Source of the DNA: Meiothermus sp.
Lineage (GTDB): Bacteria > Deinococcota > Deinococci > Deinococcales > Thermaceae
DNA: 64,000 nt
Assembly: GCF_026004115.1 (NCBI RefSeq)
Contig: NZ_BPIM01000001.1
Location: 1,697,501 to 1,761,500, forward strand
Direction: 5' to 3'
Made by a program: the position numbers and the translations under genes. Positions 7,891-56,656 of the stretch are shown piece by piece (position 1 is the stretch's first letter; each line of letters opens with the position of its first letter). The notes beneath the pieces were generated by a model. That model was given only the letters and a program-made list of their open reading frames with translations. It searched no databases and had not been told where the DNA came from.

Positions 7891-9339
7891 CTAAAGCCAG
7901 CTCGAGAAATCCACCTCGCGCTCGCCGATTTTGAAGCTGTAGGGGCCGGTTTGTTCGATGCTAGGGGTGGCCTCGAGCCAGGCCCTAAGTTGCTCCCGTT
8001 CCTCGTCGTCCAGCCATTCGGGGGGGTCGGAGGTGGCCTTGAAGCCCGCAACCAGCGCCAGGTCTTGCAGCACGGCCCGCTGCGCTGGGGTGAGCAGGTT
8101 GTAGCGGGAGCGGAAGTAGGCCACATCCGGGTCGGTATGCACCAGGGGCTTGAGCCAGAGCCGGTGCAGGCAGGTGCGCAGGGCGTTGTAGGCGGCCGGG
8201 CCGGTGGGGTCGTGCAAGAACACCCGCCGGTCTTCGTTGTCCCAGTAGGGAGCTACATCCGGCCCAATACGAAGCCCATCCACCAGCCCCAACGAGGCAA
8301 TAATGGGTGCTCCGCAAGCCAGAATATACACATCGTCGCCGGCGGCCTCGCGGATTACACGCAGCGCCTCGCGGTAGGCGTCCTCCCGCGCCTCCCCGCC
8401 CGGCCTTTTTCCCGGTAGGGCCGCTGCATACAAAAAGTCGAGCTTCAAGTACCGGTAGCCCCAGCCCCGCACCGTCTGGATCAGGCTGCGCAGCCAGTAC
8501 TGTACCGCCGGTAGGGTCACGTCCAGGGCGTAGAAGCCGCCCCAGTTGTTGCCTGCCGGAACCAGCTCGCCCTGCTCGTCGCGCAAGAACCAGTCGGGGT
8601 GTTCCTTGAACAGGTTGGAGCTGGGCCGGGCAATAAAGGGGGCCAGCCAGAGGCCGGGGGTGAGGCCCTGGCTCTGGGCCCTGAGCGCGATGGCGCTCAT
8701 CCCAGAGGGGAACTTGTGGTTGGGCTCCCAGTCGCCCATATTTTGCTGCCAGCCGTCGTCTACCTGAAACACCTCGAAAGGCAGGCCCTGCAAACCGGCG
8801 ATGGTCTGGAGCAACTGGCCTTCGGAGATGTCGCTGTAGTAGCTATACCAGCTGCACCACACCCGCGGCGCAGGCCGCTGGGCCCGCACCCCCAGGGTGG
8901 TAGCGAGCAGTTCGGCGTAGCGGCTCAGAACCTGCTGGGCTTCGCCGTAGGCCAAGAACCACTGCATTTCGTGGTCGCACGCGCCCTTCAGATTCAGGCG
9001 GTCGGCCTCGACACGGGCGCCGAGTCGCAGCGCCCCCAGAAAAAGCATACGCCCGTCGTAGCCCTCGAGGCCCCCCAGGCCACTGCCGCCGTGGACGGGC
9101 GAGAGGGCGTAGGCGGGGTCGTCGCACTGGGGGCGGCGTTCGGGGGGCAGGATGGGCCTGGGGTTTTCCTTGAGGCTGACCCAGGCGGCCTCGCTCCAGC
9201 TCTGCCAACCATGCTTGAAAAACAGGGTGCGGCCAAAAGGATGCCCAATCTGCACATGCTTGCCATGCAACAGGTAGCCACCCAGAGTCTCCTCGAGCCT
9301 CCCTGCATTAATGTGAAAGTCGTAGCCCTGAATCTGCAT
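7891..9339 (-). CDS. alpha-galactosidase, GH36
   Basis: 482 residues from ATG at 9339, two bases after the beta-galactosidase stop, so the two are coupled. It hydrolyses terminal alpha-galactosides such as melibiose and raffinose. No signal peptide, so it acts in the cytoplasm on imported sugars. The YLKLDF motif puts the nucleophile at Asp301 and the RIGPD motif puts the acid/base at Asp361, as in Thermus GH36 enzymes. The short length (about 480, without the large N-terminal domain of many GH36 members) is the Thermus type. A cytosolic enzyme beside an ABC sugar importer indicates uptake of intact galacto-oligosaccharides. Confidence 0.93.
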   Translation of the reverse strand: MQIQGYDFHINAGRLEETLGGYLLHGKHVQIGHPFGRTLFFKHGWQSWSEAAWVSLKENPRPILPPERRPQCDDPAYALSPVHGGSGLGGLEGYDGRMLFLGALRLGARVEADRLNLKGACDHEMQWFLAYGEAQQVLSRYAELLATTLGVRAQRPAPRVWCSWYSYYSDISEGQLLQTIAGLQGLPFEVFQVDDGWQQNMGDWEPNHKFPSGMSAIALRAQSQGLTPGLWLAPFIARPSSNLFKEHPDWFLRDEQGELVPAGNNWGGFYALDVTLPAVQYWLRSLIQTVRGWGYRYLKLDFLYAAALPGKRPGGEAREDAYREALRVIREAAGDDVYILACGAPIIASLGLVDGLRIGPDVAPYWDNEDRRVFLHDPTGPAAYNALRTCLHRLWLKPLVHTDPDVAYFRSRYNLLTPAQRAVLQDLALVAGFKATSDPPEWLDDEEREQLRAWLEATPSIEQTGPYSFKIGEREVDFSSWL

Positions 9340-9341
9340 GT

Positions 9342-11285
9342 TCACCCCGCTTTCCAGATGCAAAAATTATAGGCCTCGAGGGTGGGGCCTCCTACCAGGA
9401 ACCGGGCGTTTGTGGGGGCGGGGGCGGGTTGAGGTTGGCCAGAGTAGTTGAAGGCGAAAACCCAGTCGCCGCGTCTGCGGACGCGTATACCCTCGGGTAC
9501 GGGGTGAAGCGGTAGATCCAGGTTTTTGGCCAGGGCACCCAGGTAGCTTTGCAGGAAGTCCTGGCCCGGCCAGAAGGCCAGGTAGTGGTGGTTCTGGTGC
9601 TGGTACAGAGCGCCCTTGCCATCGCCAAATGTGGCCTGGGGGGGTAAGTCCGATTCAACCCACTCCTTCCATATCCCAGATGGCCATTCCAGGCCGTTCC
9701 AGCGCACCGGTTCGGATAGTCCAGGACGGGTACTCTCCACCCGCGTCACCCTGAGTGGCAGCAAATCCTGTAAGCGCCCCGGCGGCAGGGTGGGCGGAAT
9801 GCTCAGAAACTCGGTTTTGGAACCGCTCCGGGGGCCCCACACCACAACACCCTGGTGGTGGCGGAAAATTTCCAGGGCAGCCTCTGAGACCACAGGCAGG
9901 CTGGGCACCACCACCAGCCGGTACGGCTCCAGACGGGCCCCTGGGGGCACAAAGTCTACATCCAGGCCCAGCGCGCGCAGGGCTTCGTAAAACACCCAAA
10001 CCAGGTCGCGGTAAATAAACTCCCGGCCCTGGGGCTGAATCCGGTAAACCCAGTCGGCCTCGTAGTCGAAAACCAGCGCCACCGGCGCGGGGCTGCTGGG
10101 GGGCAGCGGGCCCAGGCTCTGGAGCTCCTCGGCTACCCGTGCGGCCTCGGAAAAGCCCACATCGGGCTCAAAGTCGGGGCGGTTGAGGCCGGCATGGAAC
10201 TGCTCCTGGGCCTGAGGAAACTGCCGCCAGCGGAAGTAGCTCACCACCTCGGCCCCGTGGGCCAGGGCCTCCCAGGTCCAAAGCCGCACCACGCCGGGGG
10301 CCGGAGCGGGGTTGTGGTGGGCCCAGTTGACCGGCCCCGGCTGCTGCTCCATCACCCACCACCGCGGCTTCACCCCACGGTACAGGTCGTGGTGAAAGGC
10401 GGCGATGTCGGGGTGGCCGGTGCGGGCGTAGCGGATTTTTTCTTCCGCTGTACAGGGCAGCACGTCCATGTCGGTGAAGCCCAAAGGATAGCTGTCCCAC
10501 CCGGCGATGTCTAAGTCCTGGGCTAGCTTGAAGTGATCGAAGTCGGGGGTGTAGCCCATGAAGTTGTGCACGATGAAGCGCTTCGGTGAGTAGGCCCGCA
10601 GAATTTCCACCTGCATCCGGTTGAAGGCTGCTACCTGCTCGGAGCTGAAGCGGTAAAAGTCCAGCCAGTGGGCGGGGTTAGCTTCGGTGACGGTCTGATT
10701 GGGCAGATCCACCTCGCCAAAGGAGCGGTACTCCATGCTCCAGAAGACGTTGCCCCAGGCCCGGTTGAGGGCCTCGATGCTGCCGTAGCGGGCCTGGAGC
10801 CACAGCCGGAAAGCCCGCAGATCTTCGGGGCCATAGCTGCGGGTGGTGTCGTGACAGCCGTACTCGTTGTCGGTCTGCCAGCCCGCTACATGGGGATGTT
10901 GGCCATAGCGCTGGGCCAGCAGGGTCACGATGCGGCGGGCCTCCTCGAGGTAGACCCGGCTGCTGAAGCTGTAGTGGCGACGGGAGCCAAACCTGCGCGG
11001 GCGACCTTGTATATCGTAGGCCAACACGTCCGGGTGCTGATCTATTAGCCACTTGGGCGGGGTGGCCGTAGGGGTGCCCAGCACCACTTTGAGCCCGGCC
11101 TGGCCCAGGGTTTCGATGGCCTCGTCCAGCCAGGCCCAGGCGAAGCGGCCCGGATCGGGCTCTATACGGCTCCAGGCAAACTCGCCGATGCGGACGTAGG
11201 TAAGGCCCAGCTCGCGCATGCGGCGGGCATCCTCGGCCCAGCGCTCGCGGGGCCAGTGTTCGGGGTAGTAGCAGACGCCTAGCAT
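9342..11285 (-). CDS. beta-galactosidase, GH42
   Basis: 647 residues, ATG at 11285. GH42 enzymes cleave beta-galactosides with two glutamates. The acid/base is Glu141 in TDNEYG and the nucleophile Glu313 in [13 protein letters not shown], nearly the numbering of the Thermus A4 enzyme. The zinc-binding cysteines of that enzyme (position 106 and a cluster near 150) are replaced here; residue 106 is Ser. No signal peptide. The start lies 149 bases downstream of the permease stop, so it may have some independent transcription, but orientation and spacing fit one operon with the alpha-galactosidase. Confidence 0.94.
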
Positions 11286-11433: not shown

Positions 11434-12444
11434 TCAGTCCTTTACACCACCAGCGGTGATACCGGCGATGAAGTAGCGTTGCAAAAACAAGAACAAAATC
11501 AGGAAAGGCAAGGTGGTCATCACAGCCCCCACCATAATGCCCCCCCACGAAACCCGCGTCAGCCCGATCAGGGAGCCCAGCGCCACCGGAGCGGTCTGCA
11601 TGGCCCGGTCCGAGAGCACCAGCAAGGGCCACAGATAGTCGTTCCAGGAGGCCAGGAACAAGATAATCGCCAGGGCCGCCATGGCCGGGAGCACCAGCGG
11701 CACCGCTACGCGGAAAAAGATGCGAAACTCGCCTGCCCCATCTATACGGGCCGCTTCCAGCAGGCTTTGCGGCACGCTCAGGAAGTTTTGCCGCATAAAA
11801 AACACCCCCAGGCTATTGGCCAGCGAGGGCAGAATCACCGCCCAGTAGGTGTTGGTCAGGCGGAAGTCGAAGGTCATGGCCTCGCGCAGCGCGGGCACGC
11901 CCAAAAACAGGTAGGCCAGCCCGGCCAACCCGTAGCCCACCCAGACCAGCCGCCCCAGGGCGGGCGAGAACTTCAGCCAGGCCAGCAGGGCGGCAATCCC
12001 GCCAAACACGGCCATCCCGATCAGGATGGCCAGAAGGGTTTTGGCCTCGCGGGCCACCAGAATGAACTGCGGAATCACCACCGCGAAATAGGGGATGGTC
12101 AGGGTGGCAATCACCAGCGAAAACACCACCCCCTTGCCCCAGAAATCGAAGCGGGCAAAGGCATAGCCGGCCAGGCTGGTCAAAAAGATCGAGAGCACCG
12201 TGTAGATACCCGCGACCATGATGCTGTTGAAGAGGGTTCGCAAGAAGTTGGTGTCGGCTTGCAGGCTTTGCAGGTTGGTGGCAAACTGATTGCCCGGCAG
12301 AATCGGGGTGGGGGTGCTGAAGATGGCTATCTCGGGGTGGGTTGAGAAAACGAACATCAGCCACAGCGGGGCCAGCCACAACAGCGCCAGGGGGGTTAGA
12401 AACAGGTGCAGCCAGAAGCTGCGCCACCACAGCCGCCGCTTCAC
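11434..12444 (-). CDS. ABC sugar transporter permease (MalG/LacG type)
   Basis: 336 residues with about seven hydrophobic segments; a typical binding-protein-dependent permease with the cytoplasmic EAA loop EAARIDGAGEFRIFFRVAVP that contacts the ATPase. It is longer than the usual ~280 because of an extra pair of hydrophobic segments around residues 115-175 (LLAILIGMAVFGGIAALLAW region), a feature of one MalG-like subgroup. Its ATG overlaps the stop of the upstream permease by four bases. No ABC ATPase gene is in the locus, so a shared MsmK-like ATPase encoded elsewhere is presumably used. Confidence 0.9.
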   Translation of the reverse strand: MKRRLWWRSFWLHLFLTPLALLWLAPLWLMFVFSTHPEIAIFSTPTPILPGNQFATNLQSLQADTNFLRTLFNSIMVAGIYTVLSIFLTSLAGYAFARFDFWGKGVVFSLVIATLTIPYFAVVIPQFILVAREAKTLLAILIGMAVFGGIAALLAWLKFSPALGRLVWVGYGLAGLAYLFLGVPALREAMTFDFRLTNTYWAVILPSLANSLGVFFMRQNFLSVPQSLLEAARIDGAGEFRIFFRVAVPLVLPAMAALAIILFLASWNDYLWPLLVLSDRAMQTAPVALGSLIGLTRVSWGGIMVGAVMTTLPFLILFLFLQRYFIAGITAGGVKD

Positions 12445-13280
12445 GATTCCCTCCCGAAAAGCCTGAGCTGGATGATGGAGAAGACCAGCGCCAGCAGGGT
12501 GATGGCATAGGCGATAGTAGAGGCGTAGCCAAAGTTGATGTTCTGGAAGCCCTGGCGGTAAAGGTAGACCCCTAAGGTGGTGGTGGCGGTGCCGGGGCCG
12601 CCGTTGGTAATGAGCCAGGGCTCGGTGAAGAGCTGCAGGGTACCGATAATGGAAAGCACCAGGCAGAACAAGAGCACCGGGCGCAGGCTGGGCACAGTGA
12701 TGCGCCAGAACTGCTGCCAGGGGCTGGCCCCGTCAATCTCGGCGGCCTCGTAGATGTCTTTGGGGATGCTTTGCAGCCCGGCCAGGATGATGATGGCGTT
12801 GTAGCCCGTCCAGCGCCAGGTGAGGGTGGTGATGATGACGGCCATGGCGCCCACGGGGTCAAAGATCCAGTTCAAATCCAGGCCCAGCGCGGCGTTAACG
12901 GCGCCGTTTTGGTTAAAAAGCAGGCGAAACACTGCCGAGTAGGCCACCGCCCCCACCACCACCGGGGCAAAAAAGGCAAAGCGAAAAAAGCCTCTGGCCC
13001 GCAGCAATTGCGAGTTCAGTGCAACTGCCAGCACGGTCGCCAGGGCCAGCATGATAGGTACCTGGATGACCAGAATCAGCACCGTGTTGCGCAGGGCGTC
13101 CCAAAAAGCCGCATCGCCCAGGATGCGGCCCCAGTTGATACTGAGGTTCCACACCGGTGGGAAAACCCGGGTGTTCTGAAACGAGAGCAACAGCGACTCG
13201 AGGATCGGCCAGGCCCAGAACAAGGCGAAAATCGCCAGGTAAGGACTCAAAAAAAGATAAGGGGTCGCGCTACGTTTCAC
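12441..13280 (-). CDS. ABC sugar transporter permease (MalF/LacF type)
   Basis: 279 residues, GTG start at 13280, six predicted membrane segments and the EAA loop EAAEIDGASPWQQFWRITVP. It forms the membrane channel with the downstream permease for galactoside import. The start is set by GGGAGGAAG six to eight bases upstream; that ribosome binding site is itself the last copy edge of the 42-bp tandem repeat. The GTG also overlaps the TGA of an open frame running through the repeat, so translation may be coupled to reading of the repeat. Confidence 0.9.
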   Translation of the reverse strand: MKRSATPYLFLSPYLAIFALFWAWPILESLLLSFQNTRVFPPVWNLSINWGRILGDAAFWDALRNTVLILVIQVPIMLALATVLAVALNSQLLRARGFFRFAFFAPVVVGAVAYSAVFRLLFNQNGAVNAALGLDLNWIFDPVGAMAVIITTLTWRWTGYNAIIILAGLQSIPKDIYEAAEIDGASPWQQFWRITVPSLRPVLLFCLVLSIIGTLQLFTEPWLITNGGPGTATTTLGVYLYRQGFQNINFGYASTIAYAITLLALVFSIIQLRLFGRES

Positions 13281-13282
13281 GC

Positions 13283-13500
13283 TTCCTCCCGTACAGCAGT
13301 AAGTGTTGCCGAGCAGTACGCGGCTTCCTCCCGTACGGCAGTGGGTGTTGCCGAGCAGTACGCGGCTTCCTCCCGTACGGCAGTGGGTGTTGCCGAGCAG
13401 TACGCGGCTTCCTCCCGTACGGCAGTGGGTGTTGCCGAGCAGTACGCGGCTTCCTCCCGTACGGCAGTGGGTGTTGCCGAGCAGTACGCGGCTTCCTCCT
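13283..13500. repeat. 42-bp tandem repeat, five full copies plus a partial sixth
   Basis: Units at 13283-13324, 13325-13366, 13367-13408, 13409-13450 and 13451-13492, then a partial copy from 13493. Unit 1 differs at a few bases (ACAGCAGTAAG for ACGGCAGTGGG); the others are identical. Each unit carries, on the minus strand, GGGAGGAA, the Shine-Dalgarno sequence used by the permease gene, and an imperfect 5-bp hairpin (CGGCA/TGCCG). Because 42 is a multiple of three, an ATG-started minus-strand frame (13528 to 13277) stays open through all copies, encoding a 14-residue repeat around AAYCSATPTAVREE, and ends in GTGA over the permease start. Likely unstable in copy number. Confidence 0.95.
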
Positions 13501-13569
13501 GGCCAAAAGTCTGGTTGATAGGTTGCATCTCACGGGATGTTCCAAAGGAATTCTACTGTTGTAAAAGTC

Positions 13570-13595
13570 GGGGGGTGAGGTTGCCCCCACCCCCC
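13570..13595 (-). terminator. intra-operon hairpin after the sugar-binding protein gene
   Basis: GGGGGGTG (13570-13577) pairs with CACCCCCC (13588-13595) around a 10-base loop, 10 bases after the binding-protein stop. On the minus strand it is followed by GACTTTTAC, a poor U-tract. It looks like a partial terminator or mRNA stabiliser, the common way to make more binding protein than permease. Confidence 0.55.
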
Positions 13596-13604
13596 ACAAA
13601 ACGT

Positions 13605-14894
13605 TTAGCGTGCTATGGGTAGACCGGTGGCCTGCGAGATTTGCTGGGCGGCGGCGTCGAGGGCCGCCTTGGCACTGGGGAAGCGCCCGGCTACATAGTC
13701 GGCCTGGGTTTTGACCATGATGGCGCGGGCTTCCTGGAAGAACTGGGTGCCACGGGCCGCAGGCACATTGCCCAGGGTGCCCAGGATGACCTGCCAGATG
13801 CGCTGGTTGCCCCAGTAAGGCTGGGGTTGGTTGACATAGGGGTCGCGGGTGGCGGCCAGGAGCGAGGGTACCAGCCCGAATTGCTTGAGCATGGTCACCT
13901 GGCCTTCGGTGGTGCCCAGGGCATAGCGGACGAAAGCCCAGGCCGCTTCCTTGTTGCGCGAGGAGGCCGGAATGGCCAGCGCTGAGCCGCCCAGGTTGGC
14001 CGCACGCACGCCGCCGGCCCGCGAAGCAGGCATGGGGTAGACACCCCACTTGCCGCTCTGGTCGGGGGCGTTGGAGCGGATGGTGCCTTCGTACCAGGCG
14101 CCGAACATGCTGGTGGCTACGGTACCGGCCTTGAAGGCCTGGATTTGCTCGTTCCAGCCGCCCTGCATCACGACTCCGGCGTCAATGAGTTTTTTGACCG
14201 TCTCGAGGGCCGTTATACAGCCGGGCTGATTAACCGTGACAGCGCTGGCCTCGTTGTTGAAATAGAAGCAACTGTTCTGGTTGGCCAGCATGCGGAACCA
14301 CTCGTCGTCCTGGCCGTTGGCAATCACGCCTACCTTAACCCGGTTGTTGGTTGCTGCAGCGATCTTCTTACCTGCGGCGATGAAGTCGTCCCAGGTGCGG
14401 ATGGTGGCGGGGTTGACCCCGGCCTGGCTATAGATGTCGCGCCGGTAGAACATCACCACCGGGCCGGAGTCCCAGGGCATGGCGAAGACCTTGTTGCCCA
14501 CGGTCAGTTCGGTCCACTTGAAGGCGGGGAACTGGTTGCGCAGGGTCGAGGCCGCGGGTTGCAGGGTGTTCATATCGGTGAAGCAGTTGGGAAAGCGGGC
14601 CCAGAACACCTCGGCTTCGTTGTTTTCGATGGAGTATACGTCGGGCAGGTCGCCGCCGCCCGCCGCACAGCCGGCCAGGCCGCGGTCGTAGGTGGCCTGG
14701 TTGCCGATGTCGAGCACCGTGACCTTAACGTTGGGGAAGAGCTTGTTAAAGCCGGGGATGTTGGCCTCCAGGGCCTTGGCGGCAATGTCCCAGCTCCACA
14801 CGGTAATCTCACCGCGCAGGTTGGGGTTCCCCTGTATCTGGGCCGAGGCCACCGTGAGGGCCAGGGCCGCACCTAAAACCAGTAGACGTTTCAT
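13605..14894 (-). CDS. ABC sugar-binding protein (family 1 solute-binding)
   Basis: 429 residues. A Sec signal peptide (MKRLLVLGAALALTVASAQ) is visible and there is no lipobox cysteine, so the protein is periplasmic rather than lipid-anchored. Sequence features such as GEITVWSWD, FAMPWDSGPVVMFYRRD and the C-terminal FVRYALGTTEGQ region are those of family 1 oligosaccharide-binding proteins. It is the first gene of the galactoside operon, with AAGGAGGGATAC before the ATG. The substrate is inferred from the downstream alpha- and beta-galactosidases. Confidence 0.92.
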   Translation of the reverse strand: MKRLLVLGAALALTVASAQIQGNPNLRGEITVWSWDIAAKALEANIPGFNKLFPNVKVTVLDIGNQATYDRGLAGCAAGGGDLPDVYSIENNEAEVFWARFPNCFTDMNTLQPAASTLRNQFPAFKWTELTVGNKVFAMPWDSGPVVMFYRRDIYSQAGVNPATIRTWDDFIAAGKKIAAATNNRVKVGVIANGQDDEWFRMLANQNSCFYFNNEASAVTVNQPGCITALETVKKLIDAGVVMQGGWNEQIQAFKAGTVATSMFGAWYEGTIRSNAPDQSGKWGVYPMPASRAGGVRAANLGGSALAIPASSRNKEAAWAFVRYALGTTEGQVTMLKQFGLVPSLLAATRDPYVNQPQPYWGNQRIWQVILGTLGNVPAARGTQFFQEARAIMVKTQADYVAGRFPSAKAALDAAAQQISQATGLPIAR

Positions 14895-15071: not shown

Positions 15072-15854
15072 TCAGATACGGCGGGCCACCGCCACCTCGA
15101 GCCCCTTGTTGCGCAGGGCCTCGAGATCTTCTTTTTTTGCTTTGGAATCGGTGATGAGCAGGTCAGCTGCCCCTAACGGCCCAATACGCGCTGCGGCCAC
15201 CTGCATGATTTTGCTGTGGTCAGCCAGCACGATGGTCTCGCGGGCGGCTTCCATCATGGCCCGCTTAATCTCGGCTTCTTGCAGATTGGTGTTGGTGAAG
15301 CCCTTATCGGGGTGTACCCCGTTGCAGCCCAGAAAAACCTTGTCGGCATTGATTTCACGCAGAAGCAAGCTGCCATAGGGGTTAACCAGCGAGTGCTGCA
15401 AGGGCCTGAGGGTACCTCCGGTAACGATGACGGTAATGCCCGGGTGCGACTCCAGGAGCAGGGCAATGTTGAGGCCACTGGTAATCACTACCACGTTCCG
15501 TAGCGAGGGCGAGAGGGCCTTGGCCAGTTCGGTGGTGGTGCTGCCCACATCCAAAATGATGGTCTCGCCATCGCGTACCAGACCAGCAGCATAGCCGCCA
15601 ATGCTCTCTTTTTCGCGCGCGTGAACCTGCCGGGTTTCTTCCAGGGGCAACTCAAAGCGTTTGGTCTCCGCCGGAACCGCGCCCCCCCGGGTGCGGCGCA
15701 GCAAGCCCTGTTGCTCCAGATACTCCAGGTCGGTGCGGATGGTAACGGTGGAAACCCCGAAGTGTTCGGCCAGCTGACGCACCTGCAATCGGCCATCGCG
15801 GCGCAGCACCTCCAGGATTTCCCGATGGCGAAAGGTGGCCTCGAGGGAGGGCAT
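15072..15854 (-). CDS. DeoR/GlpR-family transcriptional repressor
   Basis: 260 residues with an N-terminal DeoR helix-turn-helix (RREILEVLRRDGRLQVRQLAEHFGVS onward, residues ~9-60; signature VSTVTIRTDLEYLEQQGLLRRTRGGA split around residue 40) and a C-terminal sugar-phosphate sensor domain (LDVGSTTTELAKAL, ITSGLNIALLLE, FLGCNGVHPDKGFTN). Such proteins repress sugar operons and release DNA on binding a phosphorylated sugar. It is encoded just upstream of, and in the same direction as, the galactoside operon, so it is the obvious regulator. Its own promoter is leaderless and contains the candidate operator, suggesting autorepression. Confidence 0.9.
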   Translation of the reverse strand: MPSLEATFRHREILEVLRRDGRLQVRQLAEHFGVSTVTIRTDLEYLEQQGLLRRTRGGAVPAETKRFELPLEETRQVHAREKESIGGYAAGLVRDGETIILDVGSTTTELAKALSPSLRNVVVITSGLNIALLLESHPGITVIVTGGTLRPLQHSLVNPYGSLLLREINADKVFLGCNGVHPDKGFTNTNLQEAEIKRAMMEAARETIVLADHSKIMQVAAARIGPLGAADLLITDSKAKKEDLEALRNKGLEVAVARRI

Positions 15855-26841: not shown

Positions 26842-27292
26842 ACAAGTCCAGTAAGCGAAGCCTTGTGGCCTGCAAGCGCTCCCCGATGACCCTCGAGAAC
26901 CGTTTGCACAGCTCATAGCCAAAGGGGTGGTCTTCTTCCGAACGCTTCCGCACCGCCGCAGCATCGAAGGCCAGCAGGCGGGTGGCCTGGAAGATGCGGG
27001 CATCAAAGGTCTTGCGGGTCTCGGGCAGCATCACCGACCAGCCCAGCACCTCACCCGGCCCCAGGGTCTGGATGACCAGCTCGCCCCGCCCCGGGGTATG
27101 GATTTCCAGGCGCACCAGCCCCTCTTGAATCAGGTAAAAATCCTTGGATTCGTCGCCTTCGCGGTAGAGATAGTCGCCTACCTCGAGGGCCAGCGGCTCG
27201 GCCAGCTCGGCCAGCCAGGCCAGGTCTTTGGGGCGCATGCCCCGGAAGAAAGGGTGCTCACCCAGGTAGTGCTCGAGACCAGCTTTAGACAT
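26825..27292 (-). CDS. cyclic-nucleotide-binding-domain protein of the hydrogenase operon
   Basis: 155 residues from ATG at 27292, within the last eight bases of the beta-subunit gene. A single Crp-type beta-roll ([33 protein letters not shown]) followed by a helix, but no DNA-binding helix-turn-helix: it ends at about residue 155 with LLDLYGQPH. The phosphate-binding cassette of cAMP binders (GExA.L...RA) is changed to [16 protein letters not shown], so nucleotide binding is uncertain. Its position between hydB and hydG suggests a regulatory or assembly subunit. Similar genes are known in other group 3b operons. Confidence 0.85.
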
Positions 27293-56381: not shown

Positions 56382-56656
56382 ATACCGGATTCAAAAAGAT
56401 AATCATCCAAACCAAAGATCCCCCATTAGGCTATCTTTTTGAATCCTAGAGCACACCCCTCCCGAACGGTCTGCGAAGAAAGCGTCTGCCTTCCAAGGGG
56501 CGGTATCGCCCTCCGCTACGCGGATAACTTCCAAGGGGCGGTATCGCCCTCCGCTACGCGGATAACTTCCAAGGGGCGGTATCGCCCTCCGCTACGCGGA
56601 TAACTTCGGCCCGGTTAGTTCGCCGCCATCCGGCGCCGAACTAACCGAATCTGGTG
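56382..56656 (+). repeat. MITE-like element, copy C (three 38-bp modules)
   Basis: Same ends and hairpins as copy A but 275 bp. After the first hairpin it has a stretch not found in A, then three tandem 38-bp modules at 56491-56528, 56529-56566 and 56567-56604, identical to each other and to the single module in copy A. The right hairpin (GTTCGCCGCC/GGCGCCGAAC) and end GAATCTGGTGT follow. Confidence 0.85.

Follow-up and report, generated by a model that had tools for sequence, protein, structure and literature searches.

Two ABC permease genes of a Meiothermus genome are directly preceded by a tandem array of 42-bp units, each of which carries a Shine–Dalgarno (SD) sequence. The question raised by this locus is whether the number of units sets the output of the permeases, or whether the array is a repeat that has grown beside a start site with little consequence for the gene that follows. 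A sequence-only reading of the 64,000-nucleotide stretch that contains the locus (the window) had proposed the former, either through decoy ribosome sites or through a translated leader of 14-residue repeats.

The locus and its 42-bp array

Pfam assignments gave the order deoR/SBP/permease/permease/GH42/GH36 for this locus (Table 1), where SBP denotes the solute-binding protein. Minus-strand genes flank the array: the SBP gene stops before it at 13605, and the first permease begins after it with GTG at 13280. Because GH42 and GH36 genes accompany them, the permeases may reasonably be taken as galactoside transporters.

Table 1. Positions of the genes, repeat units and leader elements of the permease locus in the window.
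Feature	Position	Strand	Basis
DeoR-family regulator, upstream of transporter genes	15072..15854	minus	Pfam
Solute-binding protein (SBP_bac_1)	13605..14894	minus	Pfam
GC-rich hairpin after SBP stop, kept across Meiothermus	13570..13597	minus	spacer comparison + alignment
Candidate leader ORF (frame A), ATG 13528 to TGA overlapping permease GTGA	13277..13528	minus	ORF list, frame analysis, alignment
Partial unit opening the array, upstream SD copy AGGAGGAAGC	13491..13500	minus	sequence + leader alignment
Five 42-bp units CGCGTACTGCTCGGCAACACCCACTGCCGTACGGGAGGAAGC	13490-13449, 13448-13407, 13406-13365, 13364-13323, 13322-13281	minus	TRF + sequence
Permease's own SD, GGGAGGAAGC	13281..13290	minus	spacer comparison + leader alignment
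First ABC permease (BPD_transp_1), GTG start 13280	12441..13280	minus	ORF + Pfam
Second ABC permease	11434..12444	minus	Pfam
GH42 beta-galactosidase	9342..11285	minus	Pfam
Melibiase-type (GH36-like) alpha-galactosidase	7891..9363	minus	Pfam

TRF reported the array at 13281–13499 with a period of 42, 5.2 copies, 98% matches, no indels and a score of 417, the highest of any array within the 64-kb window. Read in the direction of the gene, the array opens with an SD, AGGAGGAAGC, after which come five units, CGCGTACTGCTCGGCAACACCCACTGCCGTACGGGAGGAAGC. All units end in GGGAGGAAGC, and the last directly adjoins GTG 13280. Four of the five units are identical, and the one nearest the permease has three substitutions. 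The array is real, and a chance origin is excluded by the TRF score together with the orthologous array in the sister species G002, which has ten near-identical copies. Both the five-copy array directly before the permeases and the SD carried by the repeat had been described in the sequence-only reading, and both were confirmed.

The hairpin that follows the SBP stop was found in all 16 Meiothermus spacers compared, while the surrounding sequence changes. Lying between the two genes, it is probably a 3′ stabiliser or an attenuator, and likely a means of yielding more SBP than permease. Just past the hairpin, ruber-group species share a well-conserved stretch of spacer at 13541–13575 (CTTTTACAACAGYRGAATC..CTTTTGGAGCATCCC), whether or not they have the repeat.

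Other repeats were also seen in the window. TRF listed two weaker tandem repeats at 27054–27223 (30 bp × 2.3 and 9 bp × 3.1), and at 56490–56640 a 38-bp unit stands three times in tandem, with a perfect-looking hairpin (GGTTAGTTCG...CGAACTAACC) behind it. This element belongs to a dispersed intergenic repeat family, matched at least 50 times in the window's genome and at least 43 times in G002 (first-look candidates 147 and 221). Elsewhere in Meiothermus, several species have shorter relatives of this family; the other genera searched gave none.

Copy number and history of the unit

The permease was found in 60 related genomes, and an orthologous SBP–permease pair in 15 other species of the genus, compared as one genome per species. 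(G001 and G017, from the same genus, have distant permeases only and lie outside this ortholog set.) Unit counts were read from the spacer cut out of each genome and, for G013 and G015, from the spacer itself. The window's genome (G000) has five units, G002 has ten and G005 has two; a single unit is found in G003, G013 and G015, and the remaining ten species (G004, G006 to G012, G014 and G016) have none. The difference between five and ten units separates the closest pair in the comparison. The proposed change of copy number by whole units is borne out between species, as the series 0, 1, 2, 5 and 10. Unit variants are lineage-specific, with TCGG in G000 and G002, CCGG elsewhere and GGAAGAAGC in G005, and within a species most copies are identical, the pattern that slippage or recombination would leave.

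Since a tree built on just the SBP end and the permease had poor resolution, an operon tree of 6,546 coding positions (≈6.5 kb) was used instead. In this tree the six unit-bearing species form one clade with support of 95/98, and a single change of state accounts for the distribution of the unit. On this sequence comparison, the unit is shown to have been gained once, by the ancestor that these six species share, and amplification came later, on the branch to G005 and on the one leading to G000 and G002. In the aligned leaders, the unit-free species share the end ...GGAGGACGC followed by GTGAAACG with the last copy elsewhere, so the spacer growth happened upstream of the permease's own SD. A second SD copy marks the upstream edge of the inserted stretch.

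A pattern search with up to 3 mismatches, run on 21 genomes that did not include G013 and G015, found the unit at one locus each in G000, G002, G003 and G005 and nowhere else, except for one weak 3-mismatch match in G004. A source of the unit within the operon was also sought, with no convincing match (best local score 24, against up to 26 for shuffles). Arrays of at least three GGGAGGA copies were seen in the genus at this locus only in G000 and G002, plus one irregular, unrelated match in G009.

Permease initiation and the leader reading frame

The SD-to-GTG distance of the permease is constant at every copy number, zero included, and the pair is already there in species with no units. The last SD of the array does serve the GTG at 13280, as had been suggested, with the qualification that this SD is ancestral and present in species without the unit. 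The window leader was folded with 0 to 10 units as untranslated RNA, and the cost of opening the permease start region was computed. At 60 °C, the predicted opening energy was 9.0 kcal/mol without units and 9.3–9.8 kcal/mol with 1 to 10 units; at 37 °C, the corresponding values were 14.5 and 15.9 to 16.4 kcal/mol. In the window array, no internal SD is followed by ATG, GTG or TTG within usable range; G002 has one GTG of this kind, in its last unit. In a synthetic E. coli series, the translation rate did not differ among constructs with two, three or four standby modules (PMC3936740). The flat predicted start access, the fixed SD-to-GTG distance, the lack of usable internal starts and the E. 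coli standby series together make a strong effect of copy number on permease initiation unlikely. These arguments apply to initiation and do not extend to mRNA stability or to coupling from a translated leader. With regard to a phase-variable contingency locus, whose expression or frame would switch with copy number, the 42-bp period is divisible by three and the predicted start access is flat.

The leader frame from ATG 13528 comprises 83 codons, runs through all copies and ends at a TGA that overlaps the GTGA of the permease start, in agreement with the earlier description. The openness of the frame, also remarked there, is not evidence of translation. The window unit is stop-free in all six frames (three forward and three reverse), and when random 42-mers from the window were placed head to tail, a given forward frame was open in 70% and all three forward frames in 32%. 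The TGA is automatic, because the permease GTG precedes a codon that starts with A. When the unit next to the permease is compared across the six species, its substitutions fall 4/4/5 on codon positions 1/2/3 of frame A, which gives no sign of protein constraint.

Frame A ends at the TGA within GTGA in all six unit-bearing species, with a start codon in each, that of G003 being only an internal GTG. More widely, the frame with a start is found in 10 of the 13 ruber-group species, unit-free species among them; the start is lost in G003, and the frame is broken or shifted in G004 and G009. The leader peptide reads MQYTQTFDLEDA before its stop in the M. ruber subclade and MQHICALFFREDA before its stop in G008, and both end on the permease start. 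The single clear change of leader length outside the unit is one of 3 bp, between the M. ruber subclade and its relatives. As judged from the aligned leaders, the leader frame is older than the repeat unit, and it may possibly represent a translationally coupled uORF before the permease. The putative SD of ATG 13528 in the window's genome is GGAA, ≈12 nt away and nearer to a GTG in another frame.

An N-terminal extension of the permease in frame C would pass through the window array, which is open in that frame but offers no ATG, GTG or TTG. A CTG start for this extension is not favoured: a CTG is present in each window unit, but G002 has CCG there. A Pfam match to UPF0253 on the 83-aa leader ORF was below the cut-off, covered 17 residues and was considered spurious.

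Origin, alternatives and relation to known repeats

The array is probably a young, single-locus intergenic minisatellite, amplified by slippage or recombination, that most likely has little effect on permease initiation. The SBP–permease spacer of the six-species ancestor grew by one 42-bp unit ending in a copy of the permease SD (GGAGGAMGC), which left an SD copy on either side of the added stretch. Slipped-strand replication or unequal recombination, we infer, was seeded by these 9-bp direct repeats and would have led to 2 units in G005, 5 in the window's genome and 10 in G002; the same process would keep the copies alike within a species. The permease SD–GTG pair remained fixed at each copy number. 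Because this pair is fixed and the internal SDs have no usable start codon, copy number is expected to have little effect on permease initiation. The pre-existing short leader ORF may contribute modest translational coupling, and the 42-bp length leaves its frame intact.

It is rather unlikely that the leader ORF is itself the main point, with a start at ATG 13528, translation of the 14-residue repeats and re-initiation at the GTGA, so that the array lengthens a leader whose coupling stays intact. The open frame with an ATG or GTG start that reaches the GTGA in most ruber-group species, unit-free ones included, would be in keeping with this, as would the fact that both the unit and the one further length change are multiples of three; mycobacterial MIRUs, with a −4 spacing, are thought to keep expression in a similar way (PMC12548453). 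However, all three forward frames are open, likely by chance, with an automatic TGA and no third-position bias; the start or frame is lost in three species, and the GGAA is poorly placed for ATG 13528. There is very little chance that such a leader works as a rheostat, in which copy number would set the translated amount of repetitive leader and its coupling to the permease, and whole-unit changes would tune galactoside uptake with the start site never lost.

Tuning by decoy or standby SDs, in which copies added by slippage would keep additional 30S subunits close to the permease start and so shift its translation up or down, is decidedly improbable. The n + 1 strong SDs upstream of one start codon and the clear differences in copy number between species, up to the two-fold step in the closest pair, would be in keeping with such tuning, but predicted start access stays flat over 1 to 10 units, standby modules in E. 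coli showed no cooperation when several were present (PMC3936740), and no other array with three or more GGGAGGA copies was seen in the genus apart from the unrelated match in G009. Almost no credence can be given to the unit as a DNA or RNA binding site, whether an operator or a protein-binding hairpin (GTAC-GGCA...TGCC-GTAC), multiplied to regulate the permeases. The unit does contain an imperfect inverted repeat, and its core is moderately conserved, with a divergence between species of ≈0.14 per site versus ≈0.24 at four-fold sites (pair means). This is a mild sign that the core is not entirely free to change, although its 33 columns are too few for certainty and indicate no one function; the retention of the single copy at exactly 42 bp in three species likewise hints at some constraint, and both points weigh against the minisatellite reading. 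Against a binding site, none of the 12 predicted hairpin pairs changed on both sides and several are broken without compensation, and a conserved unit hairpin is thus not supported. Rfam gave no match to the unit, no convincing similar stretch was found in the operon or before the SBP gene, and species without the unit retain the operon.

Read as a minisatellite, the locus provides a natural copy series (0, 1, 2, 5 and 10) at one start site in close relatives, with the ancestral state and a single gain known, and appears to show the birth of a minisatellite between two SD copies and its growth before a gene with the start site intact. For tests in a thermophile of whether translation responds to repeated SDs or to a longer coupled leader, the same series supplies ready constructs. 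If copy number is neutral, the array could be used as a strain-typing marker.

The array belongs to the known class of intergenic minisatellites, with a tidy evolutionary record. Like bacterial intergenic VNTR loci, it consists of near-identical head-to-tail units of tens of bp within an operon (42 bp × 5.2, with 10.2 and 2.1 copies in relatives), its copies are homogenised, and its copy number changes by whole units; it differs from them in that its variation is shown here between species, and in that the downstream gene's SD is part of the unit. Mycobacterial MIRUs (PMC12548453) resemble it in position, at an operon gene's start codon, and in their open frame, whose stop shares 4 nt with the downstream start (−4 spacing), as is found in the unit-bearing species here. 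MIRUs, however, are interspersed at many loci and apparently mobile, whereas the 42-bp unit ends with the SD of its host gene and was found at one locus each in G000, G002, G003 and G005 at up to 3 mismatches, G004 having the single extra 3-mismatch match. The TAACTGA direct repeats of marine Beggiatoaceae (PMC4679880) also lie a few nt upstream of start codons and are suspected of a role in translation. Those repeats are heptamers, present in 169 sets per genome and mostly without a canonical SD, in contrast to the one 42-bp array described here, with a strong SD in each copy.
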